A stretch of DNA of 35,382 bases from assembly GCA_900617975.1 (NCBI GenBank), contig UZAE01012624.1, positions 1 through 35,382 of the forward strand, in the 5' to 3' direction. How positions within the stretch are numbered: position 1 is the stretch's first letter; every line of letters starts with the position of its first letter. A program made the translations under genes and the position numbers. This DNA comes from Rodentolepis nana. Lineage: Eukaryota > Platyhelminthes > Cestoda > Cyclophyllidea > Hymenolepididae. Below, one piece after another: positions 3,326 to 35,382 of this stretch. Below the pieces are notes generated by a model, which was not told the origin of the DNA, searched no databases, and was given only the letters and a program-made list of their open reading frames with translations.

Positions 3326-3821
3326 AGAATTGTAGTCCCCTTCTAAGCAAGTCAATCAGCCCGCTAATTGCCTGTAATGCCACAGTGTCCAGTGATCCAT
3401 TGAAGAACTACTTTTTTTCTCTGTTTTAAGGTTCGTATATCTCGTCTGTTTTAAGTGTCTCTCTGTTTCCAATTGAATTTATTACTGACTGTGAGTCCGA
3501 AAGAATTATTGCTTCGGGGGATTTCGTATCCAGGCTGCACTACAGCGCAAACATATTATTGGGATAATGAGCTCCATAGTGGGTTATGTATTTGTTAGTT
3601 TTCGGATGAATCTTGGTTAATAAGCTCATGTACTTAAGTGAGCATACAAAGACGAAAGTGGTGCAGTCCAAGTGGATTAGGAATTTTTTGCAAGTTGTTA
3701 TTTAAATAATCTATTTTGAACGAAAAGTAGCATTCAATTCCTTTTGCCTATTTACGCGAATGCAAATTTCAATTGTTCTAGTTATTGGTTTTCAACCTGT
3801 GGTATGTAGCGCATTCATACT

Positions 3822-4905: not shown

Positions 4906-5152
4906 ATATTAACATTAGCCCATTTTTTGACTTCAGGTTTCATAGAGGGGAGGAACAGCAAAGTCACAAAATGTGGAGAGGGTGAAGAGAAGAGTGATTC
5001 ACAGATGTAAATGAGACGGACAGACATAAAGGCAGGGAAAGAGTCAAGGTGAGTACCGTGAAGGTGGTCTAATTTGACACAGTCGGGTCATGGTAGACTT
5101 TTTTGCCGTATAAGTATGCCTCGCCCAGTGGAGGTAAATCTATCGCACACCC
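4906..5152 (+). repeat. Interspersed repeat family, copy C
   Basis: Same block order as copy A: ATTAGCCCATTTTTTGACTTC, a GAGGGGAGGAACAGCAAAGTC block, GTGATTCACAGATGTAAA, GTGAGTACCGTGAAG and a final GGTAAATCTATCGCACACC. Internal deletions make it a little shorter than copy A. Confidence 0.75.
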
Positions 5153-5973
5153 CCTCCCCATTTTAGAAACACAACGAAAGAGGTAATTTTGATTTCCCTT
5201 CATTTAGTATAATGGCATATGGAATTATCACATAAGCATTAATATGATTAATGTACAAGGAATTAGTTAATTTTAAATTTACAAATACATTTTTTAAAAC
5301 TGCCTCGATAATATCGAAATAAATCGAAAACTATTCATAAAATGTTTAGATGCCCATGGCGAATCCTTGTAATTAGTAAATGAGAAAGAAGTATACACGA
5401 GTAAATAGTACATATACTTATATTTAACGTGAATATACGGCTTCGACTGCCTGTAAAATGCGGATACTAATTAAACCAAAATAACAGGCTCCAATTAGAG
5501 AGTCAAATTGGCCTCAAACTGAAAGTAAGATCTCAATCACACGCGTCAAATGAACACACTCGCAATAATCATGCCTGAGTTTGGAAATCTACCGGACCAA
5601 GTGAGTGGTTTAGTCTAAATAAGCGCGTTTATAAATAAAGCTCTTATTACGCGGCTGTAATACTCGGAAATCAAGCGTCAACCTCTGTGCTCCATTCGAC
5701 CACAATTCCTCGCTGGAGTTGATTCTGGTCTGGAGTGGGAGAGAGAGATAGATCGGGAGTATAGTCATTCCGAGACACTTAATTAACAAGACTTCAAGCA
5801 ATTGATTTTTAGAGAGATTCAGAGATATACCACATAAGTGTTTCTCGCTTTTGTCGGTTTCCTACCGTTCTTCTATCAATACAATTGCGTTTTGGTCCTT
5901 TTATGTATTAGTAACAGAAGCAGTAATAACCCCTTTGAACATGGTAGACACATAGGGAAAAGAGAGCCCATTT

Positions 5974-22140: not shown

Positions 22141-22487
22141 TTACAGTTGAACTCTATTTTTCGCAACTTCGACAAATTATTGAATTTCGTTCACAGATCG
22201 ATTTTCCATTTATAACGAGATTAGAATACTCATCACATACAGGATCTCATGACATCAATCATTCTGGAAAGGGCTGCAAACACCACAGATATATTTAACA
22301 GTAAATAAACCGTGAAAATAGGTCATACAAAAGTTGCAAATGGATTATTTTGCACGTGTGAAAGTGTCTAACAATGATGCCAATTAGAAATATGTGATTT
22401 CACATGAAACTTTAATTTTGTATTGGAGATAATAAAATCATGTTGTTGGAATTTAGAGATTTAATTATGTCAAATAACTGGCTTTAT

Positions 22488-22758
22488 GTTAGCTATAAAT
22501 GGTCCTTTGGTTGACTTGGAGCTTCATAAAGAGGAGGAACATCAGTCACAAAAAATCGAGGAGGAGGAGGAGGTGGAGGGGTGGGGAGTTGAGGAAGTAG
22601 AGTGATTCACAGATGTAAAAGAGACACACACACAAAGGTAGAGAAAAGGGCATGGTGAGTACTGATTGAAGTGAGAAGTCAATTGCAGTTTTATCGATTC
22701 TTTTGTCCCTTGAGTATACTATGTCCAGGATACACCACGTGAGGTAAGTGCATTTCAC
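22488..22758 (+). repeat. Interspersed repeat family, copy B
   Basis: Same blocks as copies A and C: GTTAGCTATAAATGG, TTGGTTGACTTGGAGCTTC, a GAGGAGGAGGAGG tract, GTGATTCACAGATGTAAAAG, GGTGAGTACTG and a final GAGGTAAGTGCAT. Carried along in the local duplication, so 27664-27933 is its duplicate and not an independent insertion. Confidence 0.8.
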
Positions 22759-23247
22759 GGCCCAAACTTAGAGATTAAACTTTTGAAATCTGCACAATGC
22801 TCGTGGGTTCTAGAACATTTACTGCATGTACACTTCCTACGACTATAACAAAGTGGAAATCTTCTACAGAGATCAAAGCTATATCTATTCGTATATATTG
22901 TGGAAGTGATGTTTGAAAGTTAGTTGGATAGTTAGAATGTAAGTAGTTTTGCATTGGAAATAGTCGTGTGTTCAGTTTGACAGGCACAAGATATACCTCG
23001 TGAAGCCACTTAATCATTTTCACTGCCTTGTGAATGATACTGACCCATCTGTTGGAGAAGCAACCATTAGCTACTTTATTGAAATTTCTAAACCTTAATT
23101 GTCAACTTATCAATTTTGGTTCTGCAATAATTGCATGTGTATTATGAAAATTTGCTCCCAAAATGAGAATCTTGATGCCATATCAATAAGCACTGCTGAT
23201 GCAGAACGGTCACGTAGTCTGTCAGATCAAAGGTGTTATATGAACAG

Positions 23248-23257
23248 TATATAAATA
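23248..23257 (+). promoter_or_regulatory. TATA box of the mosaic FN3 gene
   Basis: TATATAAATA lies about 33-42 bp before the ATG at 23290. With normal spacing the start site would be around 23275-23285, so the 5' UTR would be about ten bases. The decayed duplicate reads CATATACCAA at the matching place. Confidence 0.65.
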
Positions 23258-23289
23258 TCAACCAAAATCTACCCACGCACTCCACGAGA

Positions 23290-23350
23290 ATGCGTTGCCT
23301 TTTCTACCTTCTTTTAACACTTGTTGTTGTCGTTGTACAATCTCAAAGTA
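23290..23350 (+). CDS. Mosaic gene exon 1: signal peptide
   Basis: ATG plus 19 codons and one base. MRCLFYLLLTLVVVVVQSQS is a classic secretion signal: an arginine at position 2, a long hydrophobic core and a polar end with likely cleavage near the exon end. Donor GTAAGT follows directly. The start is chosen for the TATA box upstream and the signal character. Confidence 0.8.
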
Positions 23351-26300
23351 GTAAGTCGAGACTTTCATCTTCAATTTGCTGATTTAATAATTTTCTCATT
23401 TTGCCTTCTAATATTATTGATTACTAATGATTATTTGCTCAAATTAAGTTATAATTAAGTAAAAAATAGAATAGTGGATTTTAAAAATGTGAAATCAAAG
23501 AGCATATTTTCATGCTTTTTATAGAAGTGCAAATAGACTGTTTACGCCGCACTAGTACATACCACTGTGTACTCTACAAAAGATCTTGCCGGTTTCGCGG
23601 GAACTCTGGCTTTTAACATTCGGTAGCTTGTCTGCACCAGCACAGTAGACCTAAAGTATTATTTGACGCAATGGTTGAAGATATAGTAATTCTACAAATT
23701 TTAATTCTAATATAAGTAATTGAACGTATTTATTGAATAGATCGAAAAGTATGGATTAAGCCATCTATTAAGGAGAAAATTCAATTATACAATACACATT
23801 TAGTAGTTCTATATTTGCAAAAAAAGTTAACTTCGGCCTTTCTACATTTAGATACAGGAATCACATCGAAAGATCCAAGCTCTACCTCAGCAAATGAAAT
23901 AAGTAAGTTGAAGGTTTGTAAATGATTGCTTATATTTTTTCAGGTATAACACATATTCTCTTTTTTGTACATGATTACTTACATTTGCAAGTTTTATAAT
24001 TGTTTAAACGTGCTCATTGCACTGAACAGCAATTATGAAATAAAAATTCTGTTGAAGAAATAATTTTATATTGTGAAATTTCAATTAAGTATCTCTATAT
24101 TTTCAAAAACAATAAACTCGGCATTTTTGACTTTTAGAAGAGGGAATCACATCGAACGGTCTCCCATCTGGCACAGCTAACTTAATAGGTGAGTTGAAGT
24201 TACTTATATTAAATGTTGCTTTATTAATAGGTCAGCTCGAACCTCCTCAAAATGTCACACTGGAGGAAGTAAATAGCACTTCGGCACGTCTTACTTGGAA
24301 TGCATTAAACCATTATGGAGTGGAATTGGCTGAATATCTGGTAAACTACATTGCCGATAATTCAGAATGGTTGAAGAAAACAACGGAGAATTGTGAAGTC
24401 ATTCTTCCATTTGAAAAGGAAAAGTTGACCGCATCAGTCATGGGGGTTTACAAACTCAATGATGGAACAGATAATACCAAGAATGGAAAAGAATCTAGTA
24501 GAGTGAAACTTATAAAGATTCCCCCAAGTAAGTTCAACAAGATATATTGCTGTTGCTTGTTAGATTTAATGAAACTCAGCTAAGCTTTTCTTTCAAAAAT
24601 AAGGCAATTTCAAAAGGCAATCATGAGATAAACAGCTTTTAAAAGCTAGATGATACGTTAGGATTAAGGTGGAAAGTGGAAGAGGCAACGCATTCATTCA
24701 ATCTCTGGAAAGTTGAAGTAGTTGCCGCTCACACGCACACACACACACAGCGATTTACTGCGTCCGAACAGGCCAGTTGAAATGGAAGTTTTAAATTGCT
24801 GGAACGGTTCGCTTTGGGCATAAAGGGGGGGGGGGGATTACATTGACGGTACTCTAAGAACTCTGAAATACCTCATCGAAAATGATCAGCTTAAGCACCT
24901 TTCTGTCCTCATAGTAAAGTAGGTTTACGTTTATAACCACTCGTTGTAACATAAGATCAGTAGGAAAAATCAATTTCAATTTGACATAATAGAAACTCAT
25001 AACTCAGTATTACTTAAATCAATTAGAATTCTATAAAGATATAACAAACACTGAGGAAACGTCATTTCCAAATTTGTACAAAAGAAGCGAAATGATAATC
25101 TTTTGCCAATCATTTGAGCGCAATAACGCAGGTAGTACATGCGTATAATAACTCATTTTCTGAATATTTTTACAATAATAAACAACAAATAAAGAAATAA
25201 AGAAAGCAAAAAATGCACAAATCTCCCGACTTCTACGCCTCTGTAGAAGTTCAGGCCTTCATAAAGAGGCATTAGCATAGTCATTCTCCTTAATTAATAT
25301 TTGCGTTGTTACAGTGAAATCGCAATTGTACAGATTTTCGAGGTTAAAATTTTGAATGTGTGTAACTGATTTCTTCCTTGAAAATAGAACACAAGCCTCC
25401 ACAAATTAGTCCACTGGAAAAAATAAATGAAACTACAGCACTTCTTAAATGGAATCCAATAAATATTATCGGAGTGTACGTGAAGAAATATTTGGTTCTA
25501 TACAATAACGATGGCTCGAATTGGCTGACGAAAGAAACAACTGAATGCTCAACCACCCTTCCATTGGGGAACACAACATTATATGCATTAGTTAAGGATG
25601 TTTATCAACTCTACAAAGGATCCGAGCTAGTATACGAGAATGATTACTCAGCCCAAGTTTCTCTTGACAAGTCTCCTCCCCAACGTAAGTGTGGAAATTT
25701 AATTTCGGATTAAATTAGTGGAACTCATTTATGGCATTGAGCAGCAAGTATGGAGTACCTCTTCTATTGAAGAAATACTTTTCTCCTGTTGAATGCTAAT
25801 TTAGCATTTCCCACTTTCAAACAAAAAGTTATATTTTACTGTTTTCAACATTTAGAAGTCAATATCACATCAAACGTTCAAAATTCTACCTCAACAAATA
25901 CACTAGGTGAGTTAAATTTGTCCCTTGTTGGTGTTATTTTGATCGAAAGATCATCTCGTTTCAATGAGATTTCAAAAATATTTGTTGTCAAGACAACTCG
26001 AGCTCCCTTTGCTTCTTAAAACTTTAAAACTCTAAATTGGGCAATCTTGATATCAGAGTTCTAACAAAATAAGAATTAATTTTGCAATTTATTTATTAAT
26101 GCTTCCTAAAATTTCGGGCCTGACAAAGACTGATGAAAGGTGACTTACTTGTAAGTGAACTCAGGGTAGTATTTTTTGAGAATAGTTTGGTAAAGCAACG
26201 CATCCAAAATCTGCTGAAATGATGCACTTGTTTGACTATGCTTTTGTAATACTTTAGTTGCGGAAAGGGCAAATAATGGAAGTGATGCATCGCGCTCAAT

Positions 26301-29300
26301 TGTGCAAGAGACCAGCACTATCGGTGAGTCAGTTAGTCAATAAGAAGTGAGTAGTGAAATGCCACTTGCTGACTTTCAATACAGCAATTTGCTTAACAGA
26401 GGAATTGAATGTGAGCTTTAATGAAATGAAACGTTTGAGTGTTGATATTGATATTTCTCTGGGTAATTCACTCTCGGAGACTCTAAAATACCCTTCGAAT
26501 CAGTTAGAAGTAATTAAGGCCATTAACTAAACACCTCAAATTGCATTCCACTCAAACAAAACAATTCAAATCATTCTTTTTAATCATTCTCAGATTTGCC
26601 AGAACACCGATAAGACAACATTGATTTTTTTAGTGAAGCATGAACAAGCTTGAGCAAGCAAAATTCGAAGCAAGGACGAATTTAATTTGTTGACTGACTA
26701 GTTCATTGCTATCTGATTTAAGAGACTTGCCATCGATAACAGCTCATCATGAGAAATGAATGCTCTCTTAAGACGTGTGAAAAAATGAGATTAGAATAAG
26801 AGCAACACATTGAAGCATATTTATTTAAAGACATTTAAAAAGCGTTTGTGTGCAGGAATTGTTTGCACAATTTATATATTAACATTGATTTTTAAGTTCA
26901 TCATATATAGATTCGCATATATTTCGGCCTCTTAAACTCTGCGAAATGGGAGAGAATTCGTTATAAATTTTAACAAGAAAGAGGCTTACGTTTACAGGGT
27001 ATTCATAATTGAAGGTAATGAAGTCATTTTCTTTTTCAAAATCCATTTTAATGTCATTAAATACCTTAAGACCAGTACTTGAGCACTCGACATTCCACTG
27101 AGGTATAAAGGAACTAAAATTGGCAATTAAAGCCCATACTGTCTTACTCATTGCAGTGGAGTTTTGCCAATTCAATAAACACTTCAACTGGTTCACCTGA
27201 CTTGAATTGATAAGAACCACCGAAATACACCCCGTCTTCAGATATCATCATGCTACTTTTATAGCATAAACGGATTACTCAAATGCTGAAACTGAAGTTT
27301 ATTTCGAAAGCATATACTCCGATTTGAACTCTTCTTTTCGCCAATTCGACAAATTGTTGAACTTAGTTCACAAATCGTTTTTGCATTTATTTCGCGATTA
27401 GAATACTCATCACATACAGGATCTCATGACATCAATCATTCTGGAAAGGGCTGCAAACACCACAGATATATTTAACAGTAAATAAACCGTGAAAATAGGT
27501 CATACAAAAGTTGCAAATGGAATATTTTGCACGTGTGAAGGTGTCTAATAATGATGCCAATTAGAAATATGTCATTTCACATGAAACTTTAATTTTGTAT
27601 TGGAGATAATAAATTCACGTTGTTGGAATTTAGAGATTTAATTATGTCAAATAACTGGCTTTATGTTAGCTATAAATGGTCCTTTGGTTGACTTGGAGCT
27701 TCATAAAGAGGAGGAACATCAGTCACAAAAAATCGAGGAGGAGGAGGAGGTGGAGGGGTGAGGAGTTGAGGAAGTAGAGTGATTCACAGATGTAAAAGAG
27801 ACACACACACAAAGGTAGAGAAAAGGGCATGGTGAGTACTGATTGAAGTGAGAAGTCAATTGCAGTTTTATCGATTCTTTTGTCCCTTGAGTATACTATG
27901 TCCAGGATACACCACGTGAGGTAAGTGCATCGCGATTTTTTACCACTATAAAATTTCTAAACCTTAATTGCCAACAACCAAATTTTGGGCCAAAAATAAA
28001 TGCATGTGTGCTATGATATTTTGCTTCCAAAATGATCCAGAACGGTCACGTAGCCTGTCAGAACAAAGTTGCTTATTTGCACTTATTCCATATACCAAAA
28101 TCCACAGATCTACCCTCACACTCTACAAGAGTGCTTTGTCTTCCCCACTTTCTTACGGCACTTCTTGTTGCTACAGTACAATCTCATTGCATTGACAGTA
28201 CCATAAAAAATCTGAAATACCTCACTGAAAATAAACAGCTTAAGCTTCTTTCTGTCCTCACTTTCTGTCCTCATAGTAAAGTAGGTTTACGTTTAAAACC
28301 ACGCGTTGGAACATAAGATCAGTAGGAAAGATCAAATTCAGTTTGACCTAATAGAAACTCATAACTCAGTATTACTTAAATCAATAAGAATTCTGTAAAG
28401 ATATAACAAACAATGAGGAAACGTCATCTCCAAATTTGTACAAAAGAAGCGAAATGATAATCTTTTGCCGATCATTTGAGCGCAATAACGCAGGTAGTAC
28501 ATGCGTATAATAACCCATTTTCTGAATATTTATAAAATAATAAACAACAAATAAAGATATAAAGAAAATAGTAGGTTTTTATGTAAGTAAGAATAAAGTT
28601 ATGCTATCGTTAAATTTCTGGTTCCAGTAAGAGTGATTAAAAATGACTTGATAATCACATAAAACAAACGATGGAGCGTGTTGAATAACGCGACTTTGCT
28701 GAGGAAACGAGCTGAAAGTGAAAGCTTTCAGCAAATTTTGAACTTTGATGATGTATTATTGTGGGTACCTATTGAACTGTGCTCAAGCGAATATTCCCAG
28801 GGTGTATTATATCAATGCGGTTCTCTGAAAACTCGGTAAGCTCACAGTTGGATATGTTGAGATTGGCCACTTTGCATTTGACGATGTCTAATTTGCAAAT
28901 TTTGAGACTGAAGGTGTACAGAAATATTGGTATTTTCACGTGCTCTGAAGTGCATTCAGAAAAGTCTTTCTGAAAGTAGTACGTCTATGAACCCTCGCAG
29001 CATCTATAAATTCGATGGTGTTGAATGACAATGCCTTGGTAATGTCTTAGGTGAGGCACATGAAGATGACAGGGGTGATGCCGTGGATAGCAATCACACC
29101 GGCGAGTTAGTTGATTTGGAGAAGGTGGCAGTTATGGCCTAATAGAGAGATATTGGGGGGAGAGGCTGAAGGAGGGTGTAGTTGAAGTAGCATATCAAGA
29201 ATTGTCTTGAAGAAGGTACCAAATAGGCCACTGGCTACGTGCATTACAAAGGCTCAACACGATGTTGAGGTGGCCAACTTCTTCTATGTCACATTGTTTG

Positions 29301-32300
29301 ACAATCATTCTCTTTAAATCTGCCAGCCAAAAAGTTCTTTTATAATCCCTAGATTAAGCAGTTAAATGATATCTGGAAATGATGTGATCCAATGAAAGTG
29401 ACCAAACATTGCAATTAGTGAGATTTTGCACAGTTTGAAGTTGATAAAACGAAGTTAAAAGTAAGGTTATGGCTACAAGTAAGATTGAGAGTATGCATTT
29501 TAGGTGCTGCAAGAAAAAAAGAGAACAACAGAAAAGGCAAGAAAGGCCACAGGAGGCCCAAAAAAGGAGGCGACCATGTTACACCTCTCTCTTCTGACGA
29601 AGAGGTCGGTCCCGACGGTGAGTTAGTTATTTAGTTTTGCGGTTTAGTATGAAGGGAGTGATATGATGTCACTTCCATACTTCCATTTGCACACTTCTTG
29701 GTTGACTGAACCGTGCGTTTACATTGGATGTGATGAGATGATTGTATGTGATCTATGTTTTTTGAAATCACCTAGACGGTACTTCAGTCAATTCGAAAGT
29801 ACCTCTTGCCAACAATGAAAGTGCAGGTAAAGAGTCAGGCAGAAATGCAGGCAAGTTACAGAGAATTTTAAATATTATACTTATCGACACTGTTGTTTGG
29901 GGTTGATTGAACGAGACCTGATTCGAGTGAGTAAGTATTAGATAAAGGTAAATTGATACTTCGTTGGAATGACTAAAGTTTCATGTTTCCTATCTGAACG
30001 GACACCAATGTGAGAAAATTTTACTTCTAAAATGATTGATTTTCACCAGTCATGCTTCATCAAGTTAGATATGCAATCACGTTATGTGCTGCAAGTTGAA
30101 ATTGTGTTCCTAAAAAGGTGTGCTGGTTCTAATTGATTGAATTTCTCCACTGCTATCTTCTAATCGCGTTGAGGCTGGTAGAGAGATGTTTAGATAGGTG
30201 CGGGGGGAAGGGGGTTGTCGAGAGAGGAAGTGAAGGAGACAGAAATGGCCTAAGGGAGAGATTGTGGGGGTACGGTGGGAAGGGAGGGGCTGAATGAGTG
30301 TGAGATTGGGGTAGGATATCAAGGAATGTCTTGAAGAAGGTACCAAAGAGGCCACTGGCTAGGTGGATTACATGGGCTCGACAAGAAGTTGAGGTGGCCT
30401 ACTTCTCTCATATGAATTGAATGGGACTAAACATGAGTGACTAAATTATAGAGTAAGTGAAACTGCCAATGGCTTTTGGAGACCAAATCGTCAGGATTCC
30501 TATTCACGCATTAGTAATCTCATCACACTAGTGATATGTTAGTTAAACTTCTATACTTGCGGATATTCATCAGTTGTGTATCAACAAGGTAGATTTGATA
30601 GCGCATAATTTGCTACACATTGAAATTTGTGTGCCGACAATGGAACGTGTTAGATCTAATCGTTTGGCTATCTCAAATCGTATCATTAAAACACACACAC
30701 AGGTAGATTGAGGGAGAGAGGGTGAGTGATACGGAGGCAGGTATGGCCTTTGGGAGTGTGAGGTTGTGATTGTGGTAGTCAATCAAGTGTTTTCGAGGCG
30801 AAGGCATCTAAACAGCCTCTGACTATGTCACATAATCTGATCGACATGGTTCCAGAGTCTACACCCTTGGTATGAACTAAGCAATTTTTCTGACACATCC
30901 ACAATTCTCTTCTCTTGGTCAATTCTTGCAGGCTACTTTATCATCTCACATGTGCTGTGGTATCCTCAAAGGACATTAGCGACTGATTGATCCAGTTGCA
31001 GAAAGCTACTTGGCTCATACTGAAATATCAACTTAAATAAACATAAGCACTGATCATTTTTTCGCGTTCTTCCATACTATTTTACATTTGCAATCTTAAA
31101 CAAATGACCACACGTCGTTAAAATAAATGGAGTATCCCAAATGAACGGCCACGCTCTCGAAGTACACGGTAGTTTTACACGAATATATTCGCAATCTCAC
31201 CTGTATGGTCGTATGTTCACATGTGATTAGCACCTCTCAAACAGTTCCTCTGCCTAAATGTTACTGATCTCATGGAGAAATGTCTGCTCAAATGAACATA
31301 AGCGTCGACAATTCTGTTTGTGTTCCTCCAAACTCTCTTATATTTGTAGGCAATAACAATGGAATAAATGAAACCGTGGCAACGCCAGAAATACCTCTCA
31401 ATAAAGCCACTTCCGAACACAAAGGTAATGTGATATTGGGGTACTTTTTATAAGTTAATATCCCTGAAGTAAACATTGAGTTTGAAGTTTATACTTCCAT
31501 GTGTACACCTTATGGTTGACCAAAATGTGCATTCACATTGGATATGATGAGGTAATCGTATGTGAAGTGGACTGTTTGGTATTCCTGGACAGCCTGCAGT
31601 CGATTGGAAATTGCCATTTAGATGCAGTAAAAGCACAGACTAAGTGTTATGTAGAAGTGTTAGTAAGTTATGTCGTTTTCATCTATCCTACTTATCTGCA
31701 CCACTGAATAGCGCAAAATGAATGGGACTAGACGTGAGGAACTAAATTGTAGAGTAAGGGGTGCTGCCACTGACGAAGTCTGGTGAGTTTGGGGCTTGGT
31801 TGTCGTCAAGTGTGTAGGAGATGAGCAACGCAAAAATATATCTCAACCTTTGAGAACGGAAATAGAGTGTGGAGAGTGGGGAGTAATATTTTGTAGATAT
31901 GATATTTTTGATTGACAATGCTTTAGGTGCGTCAATCGGTGAAAATGCAAGTGATGTATCTGGCACAACTGTTCAAGGGAAGAGCACTACTGGTGACTCA
32001 GTTTGTTGGCGAGTCACTTAATATGAGATAAATGGTAAAATGCCACTTGCATGACCTCCTGTGTTATTAGCTTTGTTGTGCAAGACGTGCAATGTCATTG
32101 GGGAGGAAGACAAAATTTCTGCTGAAATCTTCCTTTCAAAACCCATAGGTGAGGCTCCAGCCGAGTCGCATGTGTCTCGGTGAAACAGTGAAAGTGTAGA
32201 AAAAGAGGATCTTGATCTTTGGCGTGTTATATGCAAATCTACTGGCTCATCAACTATTGCCCTCTCTTCACTAATTCATGCAGTCTGCTTTTCTACTTCA

Positions 32301-33866
32301 CTTGTGCTGTTATATGACCAGACGTGATTTGCGCCTGCCTAAGTGACCCGCTGGTTAGAAGCTACTGATCACATTGAGAAATTTCTGATTAAATAAACAT
32401 AAGCACTGACTAATTCCCTTGTGTTCCTCTGAACTATTTTACATTTGTAAACATAAATAAGGAAATATATGTCGCAGGTTTCATGGAAGGAACCTAAATG
32501 AACAATCGTGTATTTGGAGTACTGGGCAATTCGAAATTGAGTTAACTTCTGAGTGATGATGTTTCATTGGGAAAGTTGAGACTGTAGTACTGAAATATTG
32601 GCATTTCAACTTCCTTGGTAGATCGTTCATTGTAGACCTTTTAGATGCACTATCGCTATCAAACCTAGTAACATCTGGAGATTCGTTCGTTTTGCTTGAC
32701 AACACTTTTGTTTTGCTTTAGCTGCGTCAGAGGGAACAAGCGCGCATGATGCACCTGCCTCTCCTGTTGAAAAGGCCAGTCCTGACGGTAAGTCAGTTAT
32801 TTAGTTTGCGGTTTATTATGAAGGGAATGATATGATGTCACTTCCATACTACCATTTACGTACCTCTGAAAGGGAGAGAAGGAGACTGATGGTGGGGCTA
32901 GGGTTGGGAGAGGAGTGTCTAAAGTAGGGTGTAGTTGAGGTTGCATATCAAGAATTGTCTTGAAGAAGGTACCAAAGAGGCCACTGGCTACGTGCATTAC
33001 ATAGGCTCAACAAGAAGTTTTACAATCATTCTCTTTGAACTGTCAGCCAAAAGACTTGTTTAATTCCAAAAGTAAGCAGTTAAATGATATCTGGAAATGA
33101 TGTGATCCAATGAAAGTGACCAAACATTGCAATTAGTGAGATTTTGCACAGTTTGAAGTTGATAAAACGAAGTTAAAAGTAAGGTTATGGCTACAAGTAA
33201 GATTGAGAGTATGCATTTTAGGTGCTGCAAGAAAAAAAGAGAACAACAGAAAAGGCAAGAAAGGCCACAGGAGGCCCAAAAAAGGAGGCGACCATGTTAC
33301 ACCTCTCTCTTCTGACGAAGAGGTCGGTCCCGACGGTGAGTTAGTTATTTAGTTTTGCGGTTTAGTATGAAGGGAGTGATATGATGTCACTTCCATACTT
33401 CCATTTGCACACTTCTTGGTTGACTGAACCGTGCGTTGACATTGGATGTGATGAGTTAATTGAATGTGAACAATGTTTTTTGAAATCACCAAGACGGTAC
33501 TTCAGTCAACTCGAAAGTACATCTTGGTAACAATGAAAGTGCAGATGAAGAGTTAGATAGAAATGCAGGCAAGTTGCAGAGCATCTTAAATATTATACTT
33601 ATCGACACTGTTGTTTGGGGTTGATTGAATTAGACCACTTATGTTTCACCAATTTGGATTTACAATCAAGAAATGTGCTGCAAGTTAAAATTATTTTACT
33701 AGAATGAGGTGCGTTGGTTCTGATCGTTTGATTTTCTCGGTTGATATCTTCAAACCGCGTTGAGGCATGTAGAGAGTGGGAGAGAGAGGTTTGGGGGAGG
33801 GGGGAGGGTGTGGTCGTGAGAGGAAGTGAAGGAGGTAGATATGACTTCAGGGAGAGATGGTGGTGG

Positions 33867-33899
<33 letters not shown>

Positions 33900-35107
33900 A
33901 GAGGCGGACGGAGGGTGAGATTGAGGTAGGATATCAAGGAATGTCTTGAGGAAGGTACCAAAGAGGCAACTGGCAGATGCTTTGAATGGAGCGAGTTAAA
34001 TTCATTTGAACTAGCATACCCGGATTCTCTAAGAGAATGCAGATATGTCATATATCCATCAAATATCAAAATATGTACACTACCGAAGTGGGACTGAAGT
34101 AAAATAATTTCCATTTGATTATCTGTGAATTCAGAGTAGTTATCATGGAAGTAGTCTGTAAATTCAACCCACGTAAAAGCAGTTGATGTGGCGAACGGTT
34201 TGTTGGGTCTAAGCATGCAATGAACGCAGGTAGAACCAATTAAATACTGGTCAACAAGTATTCTTAGTGTTCTCGATGAAGCTGCAATGGATTGGAAAGT
34301 CTCTCTTGGAAACAGGGTAAGTGCAGTCAAAGTGTTTAGTGAAAGTGCGGAAATGTCATATAACCTTCAAATATTTCACATATATATTCGCTATCTCATT
34401 AGTTTGGTCCTATGTTCACATGTGATTAGCACCTCTCCAACTGTTCCTCTGCCTAAATGTTACTGATCTCATTGAGAAATGTCTGCTCAAATGAACATAA
34501 GCATCGAGAATTCTGTTTGTGTTCCTCCAAACACTCTCTTAATATTATTGGCAAAATAACACAACACATATAACTTTGGTAACGAAAGAAGTATCGCTGA
34601 AAATCTCACGGAGAACCTAAAGATAATGTGGAATTGTGGTAGATTTAATTTGATAATGTCCTTGATGTAAAGATTAAGATTGAAATTAAGATGTTGTGTA
34701 CTAACATTTCCACAGGCTTTCAAGCATAGCAGAGCGTGGGGTGGCTGAGCAACCCTCAAGGCCACTATAGATTTGATGTTGTTGATTGACAACACTTTGG
34801 TTATGCTTTAGATGTGCTAAATGCAAATAATGCAAGCGTTGCAACTGGTTCAAATGTTCTAAAGAACATCAACCTGGGTGAGAGAGTTTGTTAACGGGTA
34901 AATTAGAATGAGGTAAATGGGAGAATGTCTCTTGTAGGCACTTATTTGTTATCATTTTGGTTGTGCAAGAAGTGCAAAATCATTTAATGGGAAAGCAAAA
35001 TTACGCTTTAATCTTGTTTCTAAATCTCCTAGGTGAGCCTGCAGCCGAGTCGCATGTGCCTCGGGGAAACAGTGAAAGTGTAGGCATGGAGGTGCTCCCA
35101 AATATTA
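23290..35107 (+). CDS. Secreted mosaic gene of phase-1 exons with two FN3 domains (3' end outside window)
   Basis: Not a gene I can name. A signal-peptide exon is followed by symmetric phase-1 exons: 23290-23350, 23852-23902, 24138-24188, 24231-24527, 25388-25684, 25856-25906, 26258-26323, possibly 26385-26462, then 29051-29101, 29504-29617, 29776-29850 (or 29826), 31350-31424, 31927-31992, 32722-32787, 33222-33335, 33494-33568, 34812-34877, 35033-35107. Every exon keeps the frame whichever neighbours are included. Product: secreted, two FN3 domains with NVT, NST, NET and NTT N-glycosylation sequons, Ser/Thr/Asn/Gly-rich linkers and polybasic segments. Signal exon plus one-exon FN3 domains resembles tapeworm oncosphere antigens; the many tiny symmetric exons resemble flatworm micro-exon genes. 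Whether exons from 29051 on belong to this transcript or to a second gene is open: a 2.6-kb gap containing a decayed first exon separates them. Confidence 0.6.
23852..23902 (+). CDS. Mosaic gene exon 2: 51-nt linker
   Basis: Acceptor ACATTTAG, donor GTAAGT, phase 1 on both sides. Encodes NTGITSKDPSSTSANEI, rich in Ser and Thr. Homologous to the 51-nt exons at 24138 and 25856 through the shared ITS core. Confidence 0.65.
   Translation: MQESHRKIQALPQQMK
24138..24188 (+). CDS. Mosaic gene exon 3: 51-nt linker
   Basis: Acceptor CTTTTAG, donor GTGAGT, phase 1 on both sides. Encodes KEGITSNGLPSGTANLI, aligning end to end with the previous exon without gaps. The intron to the next exon is only 42 nt (24189-24230). 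Confidence 0.65.
24231..24527 (+). CDS. Mosaic gene exon 4: FN3 domain 1
   Basis: One whole fibronectin-III domain of 99 codons in a single phase-1 exon. It opens with EPPQNVTLEEV, has the strand-B tryptophan in SARLTWNAL, a YLVNYIAD strand C and a second tryptophan in SEWLKK. It ends in VKLIKIPP before GTAAGT. Sequons NVT and NST are present. One cysteine (TENC) aligns with the single cysteine (TTEC) of the next FN3 exon. Confidence 0.75.
24826..24837 (+). repeat. Poly(G) run at a duplication breakpoint
   Basis: About a dozen G in a row, immediately before the point (about 24840) where similarity to the second copy (28190 onward) resumes. Confidence 0.8.
24840..25190 (+). repeat. Duplicated intron block, matching 28190-28568
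   Basis: Part of the intron between the two FN3 exons. It matches the downstream block with scattered substitutions; the long shared stretch around CAGTATTACTTAAATCAATA is easy to see. Confidence 0.85.
25388..25684 (+). CDS. Mosaic gene exon 5: FN3 domain 2
   Basis: Same length as the first FN3 exon, 297 nt, and the same phase. Motifs in the same order: KPPQISPLEKI, TTALLKWNPI, KKYLVLYNND, SNWLTKETTEC, LYALVKDVYQLY, SLDKSPPQ. The two domains are clear tandem paralogues that have diverged substantially. Sequons NET and NTT are present. Acceptor GAAAATAG, donor GTAAGT. Confidence 0.75.
25856..25906 (+). CDS. Mosaic gene exon 6: 51-nt linker
   Basis: Acceptor ACATTTAG, donor GTGAGT, phase 1. 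Encodes QVNITSNVQNSTSTNTL, homologous to the linker exons before the FN3 pair. Contains sequons NIT and NST. Confidence 0.6.
   Translation, partial: KSISHQTFKILPQQIH
26258..26323 (+). CDS. Mosaic gene exon 7: 66-nt exon
   Basis: Acceptor ATACTTTAG, donor GTGAGTCAG, phase 1. Encodes 22 residues including ERANNGSDASRSIVQETSTI. Related to the 66-nt exon at 31927 in sequence, size and flanks: both acceptors end in CTTTAG and both donors are followed by the same bases. Confidence 0.6.
26385..26462 (+). CDS. Possible mosaic gene exon 8
   Basis: Open in phase 1 from either ATACAG (exon from 26385) or TTAACAG (from 26400) to donor GTAATT at 26463. Encodes ELNVSFNEMKRLSVDIDISL with an NVS sequon. 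No second copy was found and the acceptors lack good pyrimidine tracts, so support is weak. Confidence 0.35.
26879..27220 (-). CDS. Antisense FN3-domain paralogue (partial gene or pseudogene)
   Basis: An open frame of about 113 codons on the minus strand, ending in TAA. It aligns by eye with the FN3 exons of the + gene: KCLLNWQNS matches ALLKWNP, FIPQWNVEC matches NWLTKETTEC, and VSLFLVKIYNEF matches LYALVKDVYQLY. Unlike the plus-strand exons it ends with a stop, DELKNQC, rather than a phase-1 donor. No signal peptide exon is seen. A TATAAAA lies upstream at 27257-27263, but the only ATG codons just after it are in another frame. The first in-frame ATG is inside the domain (AMSKTVW). It may be a processed or inverted relic, or the 3' exon of a gene whose 5' end I missed. 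Confidence 0.5.
   Translation of the reverse strand: MVLINSSQVNQLKCLLNWQNSTAMSKTVWALIANFSSFIPQWNVECSSTGLKVFNDIKMDFEKENDFITFNYEYPVNVSLFLVKIYNEFSPISQSLRGRNICESIYDELKNQC
27257..27263 (-). promoter_or_regulatory. TATA-like box before the antisense FN3 paralogue
   Basis: TATAAAA on the minus strand, about 40 bp before the open frame. Spacing to a start site is plausible, but no usable in-frame ATG follows at the right place. Confidence 0.35.
27324..28568 (+). pseudogene. Decayed, internally deleted copy of the promoter and first exon region
   Basis: 27324-28187 matches the segment from about 22146 to 23345, and 28190-28568 matches 24840-25190; everything between, including two linker exons and the first FN3 exon, is missing. 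The signal-peptide exon is recognisable at 28131 onward, but its ATG is GTG and the TATA box has become CATATACCAA. The reading frame of the leader is still open past the junction. A 13-bp tandem duplication (TTTCTGTCCTCAC) lies at about 28249-28273. Best explained as duplication followed by a deletion. Confidence 0.8.
27664..27933 (+). repeat. Interspersed repeat family, copy B' (duplicate of copy B)
   Basis: Nearly identical to 22488-22758, because it was copied in the same segmental duplication. Confidence 0.85.
29051..29101 (+). CDS. Mosaic array exon, 51 nt, with GC donor
   Basis: Acceptor AATGTCTTAG, phase 1 on both sides, donor GCGAGT. Encodes an acidic peptide, EAHEDDRGDAVDSNHT. Size matches the other 51-nt exons. 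Its upstream flank is related to those of the exons at 31927, 32722 and 34812. Confidence 0.5.
29135..29290 (+). repeat. G-rich intron repeat, copy 1
   Basis: Purine-rich block (TTGGGGGGAGAGGCTGAAGG) followed by the conserved tail TCTTGAAGAAGGTACCAAA and AGGCCACTGGCTACGTGCATTAC. Related copies occur at about 30175-30400, 30705-30830, 32880-33015 and 33770-33975. Confidence 0.7.
29360..29735 (+). repeat. Near-identical duplication, copy 1
   Basis: Appears base-for-base identical to 33080-33454 over roughly 370 bp, including the whole 114-nt exon and both flanking intron pieces; the first difference after the exon is a T/G in GCGTTTAC versus GCGTTGAC. A very recent duplication, gene conversion or an assembly duplicate. 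Confidence 0.9.
29504..29617 (+). CDS. Mosaic array exon, 114 nt, polybasic
   Basis: Acceptor GCATTTTAG, donor GTGAGT, phase 1 on both sides. Encodes 38 residues: a strongly basic half containing RKKENNRKGKKGHRRPKK, then an acidic tail ending SSDEEVGPD. In a secreted protein the basic cluster could bind heparan sulfate or other polyanions; this is inference. Confidence 0.6.
29776..29850 (+). CDS. Mosaic array exon, 75 nt (GC donor) or 51 nt (GT donor)
   Basis: Acceptor TCACCTAG. Two phase-1 donors are available: GTAAAG after 29826 (51 nt) or GCAAGT after 29850 (75 nt). Encodes TSVNSKVPLANNES and then, if extended, KESGRNA. In the duplicate at 33494 the first donor is destroyed and only the GC donor remains. 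Confidence 0.5.
30175..30400 (+). repeat. G-rich intron repeat, copy 2
   Basis: Purine-rich block with GTGCGGGGGGAAGGGGG, then AGGATATCAAGGAATGTCTT and GAAGAAGGTACCAAAGAGGC. On the minus strand it gives a proline/serine-rich open frame, which I regard as a by-product of composition. Confidence 0.7.
30463..30667 (+). repeat. Duplicated block matching 35178-35382
   Basis: CTGCCAATGGCTTTTGGAGA through GTTAGATCTAATCGTTTG occurs again at the very end of the window with few differences. The second copy is cut by the window edge, so the array continues to the right. Confidence 0.9.
30705..30830 (+). repeat. G-rich intron repeat, copy 3 (degenerate)
   Basis: Short GGGAGAGAGGGTGAGTGATA block and a decayed tail (GAAGGCATCTAAACAGCCTC) where the other copies read GAAGGTACCAAAGAGGCCAC. 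Confidence 0.5.
31205..31345 (+). repeat. Duplicated intron block matching 34408-34535
   Basis: Shared sequence around TTCACATGTGATTAGCACCT and TTCTGTTTGTGTTCCTCCAA, just before the 31350 exon. In the second copy the exon after it has decayed. Confidence 0.8.
31350..31424 (+). CDS. Mosaic array exon, 75 nt
   Basis: Acceptor TATATTTGTAG, donor GTAATG, phase 1 on both sides. Encodes a peptide with NNNGINETVATPEIPLNKAT, containing the sequon NET. The matching place in the duplicated block near 34545-34617 no longer has an open exon. Confidence 0.5.
31927..31992 (+). CDS. Mosaic array exon, 66 nt
   Basis: Acceptor AATGCTTTAG, donor GTGACT, phase 1. Encodes ASIGENASDVSGTTVQGKST, related to the 66-nt exon at 26258 and containing the sequon NAS. 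Confidence 0.55.
32149..32223 (+). pseudogene. Dead copy of the 75-nt exon at 35033
   Basis: Aligns with 35033-35107, sharing GCCGAGTCGCATGTG and AACAGTGAAAGTGTAG. A G-to-T change turns GGA into TGA after the tenth complete codon, and there is no GT or GC donor at the matching exon end. An upstream GTGAAA could act as a donor but would shift the frame. Confidence 0.65.
32722..32787 (+). CDS. Mosaic array exon, 66 nt
   Basis: Acceptor TTTTGCTTTAG, donor GTAAGTCAG, phase 1. Encodes a peptide with ASEGTSAHDAPASPVEKASP. The bases after the donor resemble those after the 114-nt exons (GTTAGTTATTTAG), so donor-side flanks were also shared. Confidence 0.55.
32880..33015 (+). repeat. G-rich intron repeat, copy 4
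   Basis: GGTGGGGCTAGGGTTGGGAG block, then TCTTGAAGAAGGTACCAAAG and GGCCACTGGCTACGTGCATT, very close to copy 1. Confidence 0.7.
33080..33454 (+). repeat. Near-identical duplication, copy 2
   Basis: Second copy of 29360-29735, offset 3720 bp at the left end and through the exon. Confidence 0.9.
33222..33335 (+). CDS. Mosaic array exon, 114 nt, second copy
   Basis: Identical to 29504-29617 as read, with the same phase-1 splice sites and the same polybasic-then-acidic peptide. Confidence 0.6.
33494..33568 (+). CDS. Mosaic array exon, 75 nt, GC donor only
   Basis: Copy of the 29776 exon. The acceptor is CACCAAG rather than CACCTAG. The internal GTAAAG donor has become GATGAAG, so the exon can only end at the GCAAGT site. 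Encodes TSVNSKVHLGNNESADEEL and RNA. Confidence 0.5.
33770..33975 (+). repeat. G-rich intron repeat, copy 5, with long poly(G)
   Basis: Contains an uninterrupted run of more than 25 G (about 33870-33898), then the family tail AGGATATCAAGGAATGTCTT and GAAGGTACCAAAGAGGCAAC. The run may be longer or shorter in the real genome. Confidence 0.75.
33985..34327 (-). pseudogene. Unrecognised antisense coding-like insert
   Basis: About 114 codons open on the minus strand with natural protein composition, unlike the proline-rich repeat that follows it. Visible motifs: LFPRETFQSIAASSRTLRIL, VDQYLIGSTCVHCMLRPNKP, FTWVEFTDYFHDNYSEF, MEIILLQSHFGSVHILIF, YMTYLHSLRESGYASS. I do not recognise the family. Copy 2 of the G-rich repeat lacks this segment at the matching point (after CACTGGC), so it looks inserted. 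No intron interrupts it and no convincing acceptor precedes it, which would fit a captured exon or a retrocopy fragment. A real minus-strand exon cannot be excluded. Confidence 0.45.
34812..34877 (+). CDS. Mosaic array exon, 66 nt
   Basis: Acceptor TTATGCTTTAG, donor GTGAGA, phase 1. Encodes VLNANNASVATGSNVLKNIN with an NAS sequon, related to the exons at 26258 and 31927. Confidence 0.55.
35033..35107 (+). CDS. Mosaic array exon, 75 nt
   Basis: Acceptor AATCTCCTAG, donor GTAAGT, phase 1. Encodes EPAAESHVPRGNSESVGMEV and LPN. Intact counterpart of the dead copy at 32149. Confidence 0.55.
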
Positions 35108-35177
35108 GTAAGTTATATAGAGTTCAAATGTTTTACTTATCAACACAATTGTTGACTAATTGTTAGAGTTAGAGGAG

Positions 35178-35382
35178 CTGCCAATGGCTTTTGGAGACGA
35201 AATCGTCCGGATTCCTATTCACTCATTAGTAATCTCTCCACAGCAGCGATATGTTAATTGAACTTCTATACTTGCGGACATTCATCAGTTGTGTATCAAC
35301 AAGGTAGATTTGATAGCGCATAATTTGCTACACATTGAAATTTGTGTGCCGACAATGGAACGTGTTAGATCTAATCGTTTGA
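35178..35382 (+). repeat. Duplicated block matching 30463-30667, cut by window end
   Basis: See the entry at 30463. Its presence at the window edge predicts that further array units lie to the right. Confidence 0.9.

Follow-up and report, generated by a model that had tools for sequence, protein, structure and literature searches.

A signal-peptide exon followed by an array of phase-1 exons

The window analyzed is the whole of a 35,382-nt contig, C2822, from the Rodentolepis nana assembly (107.1 Mb in 4701 contigs). A TPI exon agrees with chain 6oog, from Taenia solium, at 65 of 74 residues by hand count, as would suit a tapeworm, perhaps one outside Taenia. It carries a TATA box, a signal-peptide exon called by eye and, 3′ of these and up to position 35107, 16 candidate exons. 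The TATA box was read from the sequence and from DNA matches, and an alignment of the family promoters has a TATA-like element in five of its eight rows. The exons were recovered by reading the sequence and by a phase-1 exon scan; 15 of the 16 were scored together, and the one at 29051-29101 was found through a profile of the 66-nt exon type. An ordinary neighbor gene is marked at 727-1137 by a phosphomannose isomerase helical domain (49.3 bits in Pfam).

23250-23255, + strand, TATAAA box, about 40 nt 5′ of the ATG, inside a promoter stretch common to the family
23290-23350, + strand, signal-peptide exon, 61 nt, running from the ATG at 23290 to a donor exactly 61 nt on, ending in phase 1
23852-23902, + strand, 51-nt exon, phase 1-1
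24138-24188, + strand, 51-nt exon, phase 1-1, related to the 23852 exon and followed by a 42-nt intron
24231-24527, + strand, FN3 exon a (FN3a), 297 nt, phase 1-1, Pfam fn3
25388-25684, + strand, FN3 exon b (FN3b), 297 nt, phase 1-1, resembling FN3a
25856-25906, + strand, 51-nt exon, phase 1-1, two sequons
26258-26323, + strand, 66-nt family exon (exon profile and phase scoring)
29051-29101, + strand, 51-nt open phase-1 copy, GC donor, encoding an RGD tripeptide (profile search)
29504-29617, + strand, 114-nt polybasic exon, its 3′ part related to the 66-nt exons
29776-29850, + strand, 75-nt exon, GC donor; use of a second, GT donor would shorten it to 51 nt (29776-29826)
31350-31424, + strand, 75-nt exon (phase-1 scan and scoring)
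31927-31992, + strand, 66-nt family exon (exon profile and phase scoring)
32722-32787, + strand, 66-nt family exon (exon profile and phase scoring)
33222-33335, + strand, duplicate of the polybasic exon 29504-29617, matching it at all 114 bases
33494-33568, + strand, second copy of the 75-nt GC-donor exon (alignment of duplicates and scoring)
34812-34877, + strand, 66-nt family exon (exon profile and alignment of duplicates)
35033-35107, + strand, 75-nt exon (scan and alignment with its counterpart on contig C1239)

Each of the 16 exons has a length divisible by three and an open phase 1; 13 are flanked by AG-GT, and three have a GC donor. The preliminary description had counted about 17 phase-1 exons after the signal-peptide exon, and its mosaic layout is borne out by the phase scan and by Pfam: symmetric phase-1 exons, FN3 domains, sequons and polybasic pieces are all present. 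Among 23 short exons from the window and its paralogues, Ser, Thr and Asn together make up 33% of the residues and an N-glycosylation sequon occurs in 15, and the 114-nt exon is strongly basic. Pfam gave nothing above a cut-off for two terminal exons, the 114-nt exon or the 31350 exon. The tripeptide RGD, known from integrin ligands, may be present by chance in the exon at 29051-29101. The 42-nt intron at 24189-24230, between a 51-nt exon and FN3a, is itself open in frame, and its retention would add 14 residues with no frameshift. A run of 30 G lies inside the array at 33869-33898.

FN3a scores 29.1 bits against the Pfam fn3 model, for which the cut-off is 25, and FN3b, at 16.2 bits, falls below it; the two are 41% identical over their full length. 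The best solved relative by sequence is titin (E 0.0003). When 5.8 billion proteins were searched with the FN3a frame, 28 candidates came up, none at E 0.01; the collection is perhaps poor in animal sequences. An AlphaFold model of FN3b, built from two sequences, has a pLDDT of 36 and is useless. Outside the window, FN3a finds 11 places on C2487, three on C4340, one on C628 and two weak ones on C4088. The 11 places on C2487 form a cluster, mostly of 297-nt exons, that resembles an oncosphere-antigen locus.

Because the signal-peptide, FN3 and short Ser/Thr/Asn-rich or basic exons share phase-1 boundaries, any set of them would join in frame. The structure permits alternative splicing and variable proteins, and such swappable exons could let the parasite vary what the host sees. 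The same exons might instead encode a constitutively spliced surface protein with one main isoform, in which duplication just lengthens a glycosylated stalk. Duplication within phase-1 introns yields symmetric arrays automatically, as in many extracellular modular proteins, and scans of C2487 and C4340 that required an open phase-1 exon recovered 13 FN3 exons, likewise in phase 1-1 and 297 nt long in nine cases. Against this stand the GC donors on three of the 16 exons and the nested GT and GC donors of one exon, which suggest weak, possibly optional splicing, and the alternative splicing of similar layouts that is described in the available text on TSOL45 (PMC3383989) and on micro-exon genes, or MEGs (PMC7653826, PMC4350168). 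We regard a constitutive array as rather unlikely, though to be taken seriously.

Phase 1 and the gene family across the genome

As the exon list was partly picked for openness in phase 1, the list alone is no test of phase. The profile of the 66-nt exon retrieved 22 sense-strand rows, 12 of which keep both AG and GT; these 12 all have lengths divisible by three (66, 57 or 42 nt) and an open phase 1, and since six of them had seeded the profile, the independent support is six out of six. Among the other ten rows, two have one site changed yet stay open, two are without either site and carry stops, and six are 3′ pieces, two of which are part of 114-nt exons. Between 23290 and 35382, donors with a high-scoring phase-1 exon, at a score threshold of our own choice, number six on the + strand and none on the − strand, against a mean of 0.30 and a maximum of 2 in 60 dinucleotide shuffles. 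Phases 0 and 2 of the + strand give two donors and one donor, with shuffle maxima of 3 and 3, and the upstream 22 kb gives, in phases 0, 1 and 2, counts of 3, 1 and 0 on the + strand and 1, 0 and 1 on the − strand. From these shuffle and upstream counts it follows that just some of the 16 exons stand out on score alone.

Short open AG..GT stretches could arise by chance in AT-rich repetitive DNA: lone short exons may be open by luck, and phase 0 is likewise open in 10 of the 25 listed exons. The shuffle control of the phase-1 donors argues against such an origin, as do the identical exon type, sites and phase on C3969, C4135, C2368 and C4079 and the signal-peptide donor position shared across the family, and we consider it very improbable.

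Further copies of the promoter and signal-peptide exon lie on C4079 (three), C4135 (two), C3969 (two), C2368, C1239, C4340 and other contigs. A signal-peptide profile gave 18 matches, of which 11 retain the ATG together with a GT donor at exactly 61 nt, in a set biased by its choice of stretches that matched. The 66-nt exon type is also present on C1239, C3969, C4135, C4079 and C2368, and the third gene of C4079 holds a signal peptide, a 66-nt exon and a transmembrane exon within about 1.4 kb; a terminal-exon scan of the examined part of C3969 gave no transmembrane end exon. On C4340, the FN3 exons are preceded, in the same orientation, by two family signal-peptide exons, a physical arrangement in which the family start and FN3 exons could be mixed; a different signal-peptide-like frame lies nearer to these FN3 exons than the family signal-peptide exons do. 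The family size, derived from DNA and pattern searches of the genome, is a lower bound. In all likelihood the family is genuine and encodes extracellular proteins, and its combination of parts is unusual.

A probable membrane anchor on C1239 and duplications within the array

The array reaches the contig end, so that the gene runs off C2822. In DNA searches of the genome with the stretches 29480-29860, 31000-32000 and 32600-35382, E values of 0.001 or better are confined, among the matches listed, to C2822 and C1239. In a local comparison of higher sensitivity, weaker array-like pieces, at about 66-82% identity, also emerge on C3969, C4135, C2368 and C4079. C1239 begins within array sequence, in the orientation and order seen in the window, and carries exons at 1258-1323, 1478-1552 and 1633-1698, followed at 3352-3533 by a terminal exon with a phase-1 acceptor, a hydrophobic helix, a short basic tail and then a stop. 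This terminal exon is without another good match in the genome. The transmembrane exon of a C4079 paralogue opens with a similar motif. The two contigs are 83-86% identical, which argues against alleles, and we infer that the gene consists of C2822, then a gap, then C1239. The array would thus go on in C1239, where the transmembrane helix and short tail exon would close the reading frame.

The terminal-exon scan covers hydrophobic phase-1 ends only. On C1239 it gives exactly two strong matches, the second belonging to the next gene on that contig. Over 23400-35382 it yields two weak candidates, with hydropathies of 2.05 and 2.02 against 2.98 for the C1239 exon, and no hydrophobic phase-1 terminal exon passed between 26323 and 35382. 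With C1239 as its predicted 3′ part, the product is probably membrane-anchored rather than secreted, since the sole convincing hydrophobic end exon encodes a transmembrane helix with a cytoplasmic tail; the term "secreted" in the preliminary description is therefore probably wrong in this detail. A purely secreted product is not our first choice, the only good hydrophobic terminal exon being transmembrane. Between two family genes of C1239, at 5123-5787, lie open frames that by eye resemble a broken retrotransposon reverse transcriptase.

The array is interrupted by a duplicate that may mark a gene boundary, and it contains dead exons:

27324-28567, + strand, partial duplicate of the gene's own 5′ region (copies of 22147-22753, 23082-23345 and 24837-25205), inside the array
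32149-32213, + strand, copy of the 75-nt exon 35033, dead through an in-frame stop, with a 66.7% match to the 35033 peptide

The duplicate includes a degraded copy of the promoter and signal-peptide exon at 27951-28186, in which the signal-peptide copy near 28130 is without an ATG. The stretches 22147-22753 and 27324-27930 are 97% identical copies, whose second half forms part of a genome-wide dispersed repeat (1430 first-look candidates, 40 of them scored), so that a mobile-type repeat adjoins the duplicated gene start. The stop of the 32149 exon is common to its C1239 copy, which makes the death of this exon old, and a dead copy of the 31350 exon lies near 34549. Read from the sequence, this looks like birth and death of exons.

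The degraded start and the dead copies at 32149 and near 34549 would also suit two separate units, a working signal-peptide and FN3 gene that ends before about 28 kb and a decaying array from 28.1 kb, untranslated because its own signal-peptide exon is broken. Without a hydrophobic phase-1 end between 26323 and 35382, however, a different kind of end would have to be assumed for the upstream gene. Past 28.1 kb, moreover, 10 exons are open in phase 1, seven of them with AG-GT, and the two polybasic exons differ at 0 of 114 positions against 34 of 536 non-exon positions (P 0.0019), which indicates constraint or recent conversion. We judge this division distinctly unlikely. The reading that we favor, with slightly better than even confidence, is that a real gene, whose 5′ and middle parts lie in the window, encodes a modular, membrane-anchored, MEG-like tapeworm surface protein with two FN3 exons. 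The likely function of such a protein would be that of a glycosylated stalk with an adhesion head at the host interface.

Micro-exon genes, oncosphere antigens and exon divergence

Arrays of this kind, which had been taken as little described in tapeworms, are in fact on record: the available text of PMC7653826 reports 52 MEGs in Hymenolepis microstoma and 35 in Echinococcus multilocularis. Under the rule given there, a MEG has seven or more exons, at least half of which are micro-exons (shorter than 70 nt, with a length divisible by three), including four in a row. Here 21 exons are predicted (signal peptide, 16 in the window, three plus the terminal exon on C1239, with splicing and join as proposed above), well over seven; 10 of the 21, by hand count, are shorter than 70 nt and divisible by three, short of half, and the longest run is three (25856, 26258, 29051). 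With a limit of 81 nt, to which the range of S. mansoni micro-exons extends in the available text of PMC10526429, 15 of the 21 are micro and a run of four appears (29776, 31350, 31927, 32722). The gene, which narrowly fails the counting rule of PMC7653826 and would pass at the 81-nt limit, is MEG-like.

The accessible text of PMC4350168 describes MEG products as having a signal peptide, symmetric exons and a fast-evolving mature part and as predicted to be secreted or membrane-anchored, and MEGs as enriched in transposable elements. A signal peptide (called by eye) and symmetric exons are both found here. As in the MEGs of schistosomes and tapeworms (available text of PMC4350168 and PMC7653826), a signal-peptide exon precedes many short symmetric exons, the product is secreted or membrane-anchored, and the family is tandemly duplicated, with a conserved signal peptide and a fast-changing mature part. 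Unlike them, the present gene has short exons of 51-114 nt and two 297-nt FN3 exons within the array; the main text of a MEG review (PMC10526429) contains neither the term fibronectin nor the term transmembrane.

The taeniid antigens 45W/TSOL45, 16k/18k and EG95 likewise have a signal-peptide exon and then one or more separate FnIII exons (available text of PMC3383989 and PMC2671473). In the portion of PMC3383989 at hand, the number of FnIII domains encoded by TSOL45 transcripts is two, one or zero, in some cases through alternative splicing; EG95 consists of a signal-peptide exon, an FnIII exon and a third exon (PMC2671473, in the text available), and tm16, tm18 and EG95 each have three coding exons (likewise in PMC2671473 and PMC2706984). 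The 45W/TSOL45 layout of a signal peptide and two FnIII exons is found in the window, its second FN3 being below the Pfam cut-off, whereas the consulted portions of PMC3383989, PMC2671473 and PMC2706984 describe no short-exon array for 45W/TSOL45, EG95 or tm16/tm18. Two TSOL45-1B primers have no match at four or fewer mismatches in the window and 12 further sequences, though the species may differ; the best match of six T. multiceps tm16/tm18 primers in the examined sequence has five mismatches, and one such primer finds none within three mismatches in the whole genome. By analogy of layout, the gene would work like a MEG and carry an FnIII part like 45W. Tapeworm MEGs being already known, it is the combination with two FN3 exons that is unusual, and in the part of the literature covered by our search for FN3 with MEG and for exons evolving faster, no paper was recognized as describing such a gene.

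Duplicated segments were aligned and exon differences compared with non-exon differences by Fisher tests (12 comparisons, P as single-test values). Exons diverge significantly faster than introns in five comparisons, in three of which both copies are open, and significantly slower in one, that of the polybasic exon; six show no significant difference (34812, 31927, 29776, a C4135 exon and two signal-peptide exons). The 35033 exon and its C1239 copy, open in both, differ at 25 of 75 positions against 117 of 972 non-exon positions (P 4e-6), with sharp edges, the adjoining 25-base bins differing at 0-3 positions. Between C3969 and C2368, two exons differ at 11 of 66 and 8 of 57 positions against 56 of 1235 (P 3.3e-4 and 5.6e-3), again with sharp edges; both are open in both copies, the first with a changed acceptor in C2368. 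None of the control AG..GT stretches of the 35033 and C3969/C2368 alignments (26 and 97) reaches the exon values. The two comparisons of exon 31350 (27 of 75 and 27 of 72) also show an excess, which extends past the exon and involves dead partners without an AG acceptor.

Synonymous sites are as divergent as nonsynonymous ones (pN 0.30 and pS 0.46 for 35033), and the counts do not show positive selection by point mutation. This equality suggests that exon cassettes were replaced, or that introns were homogenized by conversion while diverse exons were kept; in MHC genes, introns are homogenized around diverse exons. Since the duplicates differ in exon sequence, variation between gene copies is better supported than variation by splicing. 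Under the favored reading of a membrane-anchored, MEG-like protein, the promoter and signal peptide would serve as a common scaffold on which segmental duplication adds, replaces and kills exon cassettes, and diversification would take place between gene copies and perhaps also by exon skipping.

In a stronger form, this would be a germline exon-cassette system, in which promoter, signal peptide, introns and splice sites form a fixed scaffold and divergent short exons are swapped on it, with near-identical introns and with FN3 exons slotted in by the phase-1 rule; we put it forward tentatively and with considerable doubt. If true, it would provide two layers of surface variation, cassette recombination and optional splicing, and MEG-type genes would share a single exon-exchange pool with the oncosphere antigens used in vaccines. 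Tapeworm vaccines are based on oncosphere FnIII antigens, and MEGs are believed to vary the proteins that the host encounters. A gene that unites both layouts and has some exons outpacing its introns would point to the way in which tapeworms diversify their surface proteins, and with it simple long-read sequencing could measure antigen variability. Outside the 12 comparisons, the 33494 exon and its C1239 copy, which has lost its donor, are identical at 53 of 64 positions, against 332 of 371.
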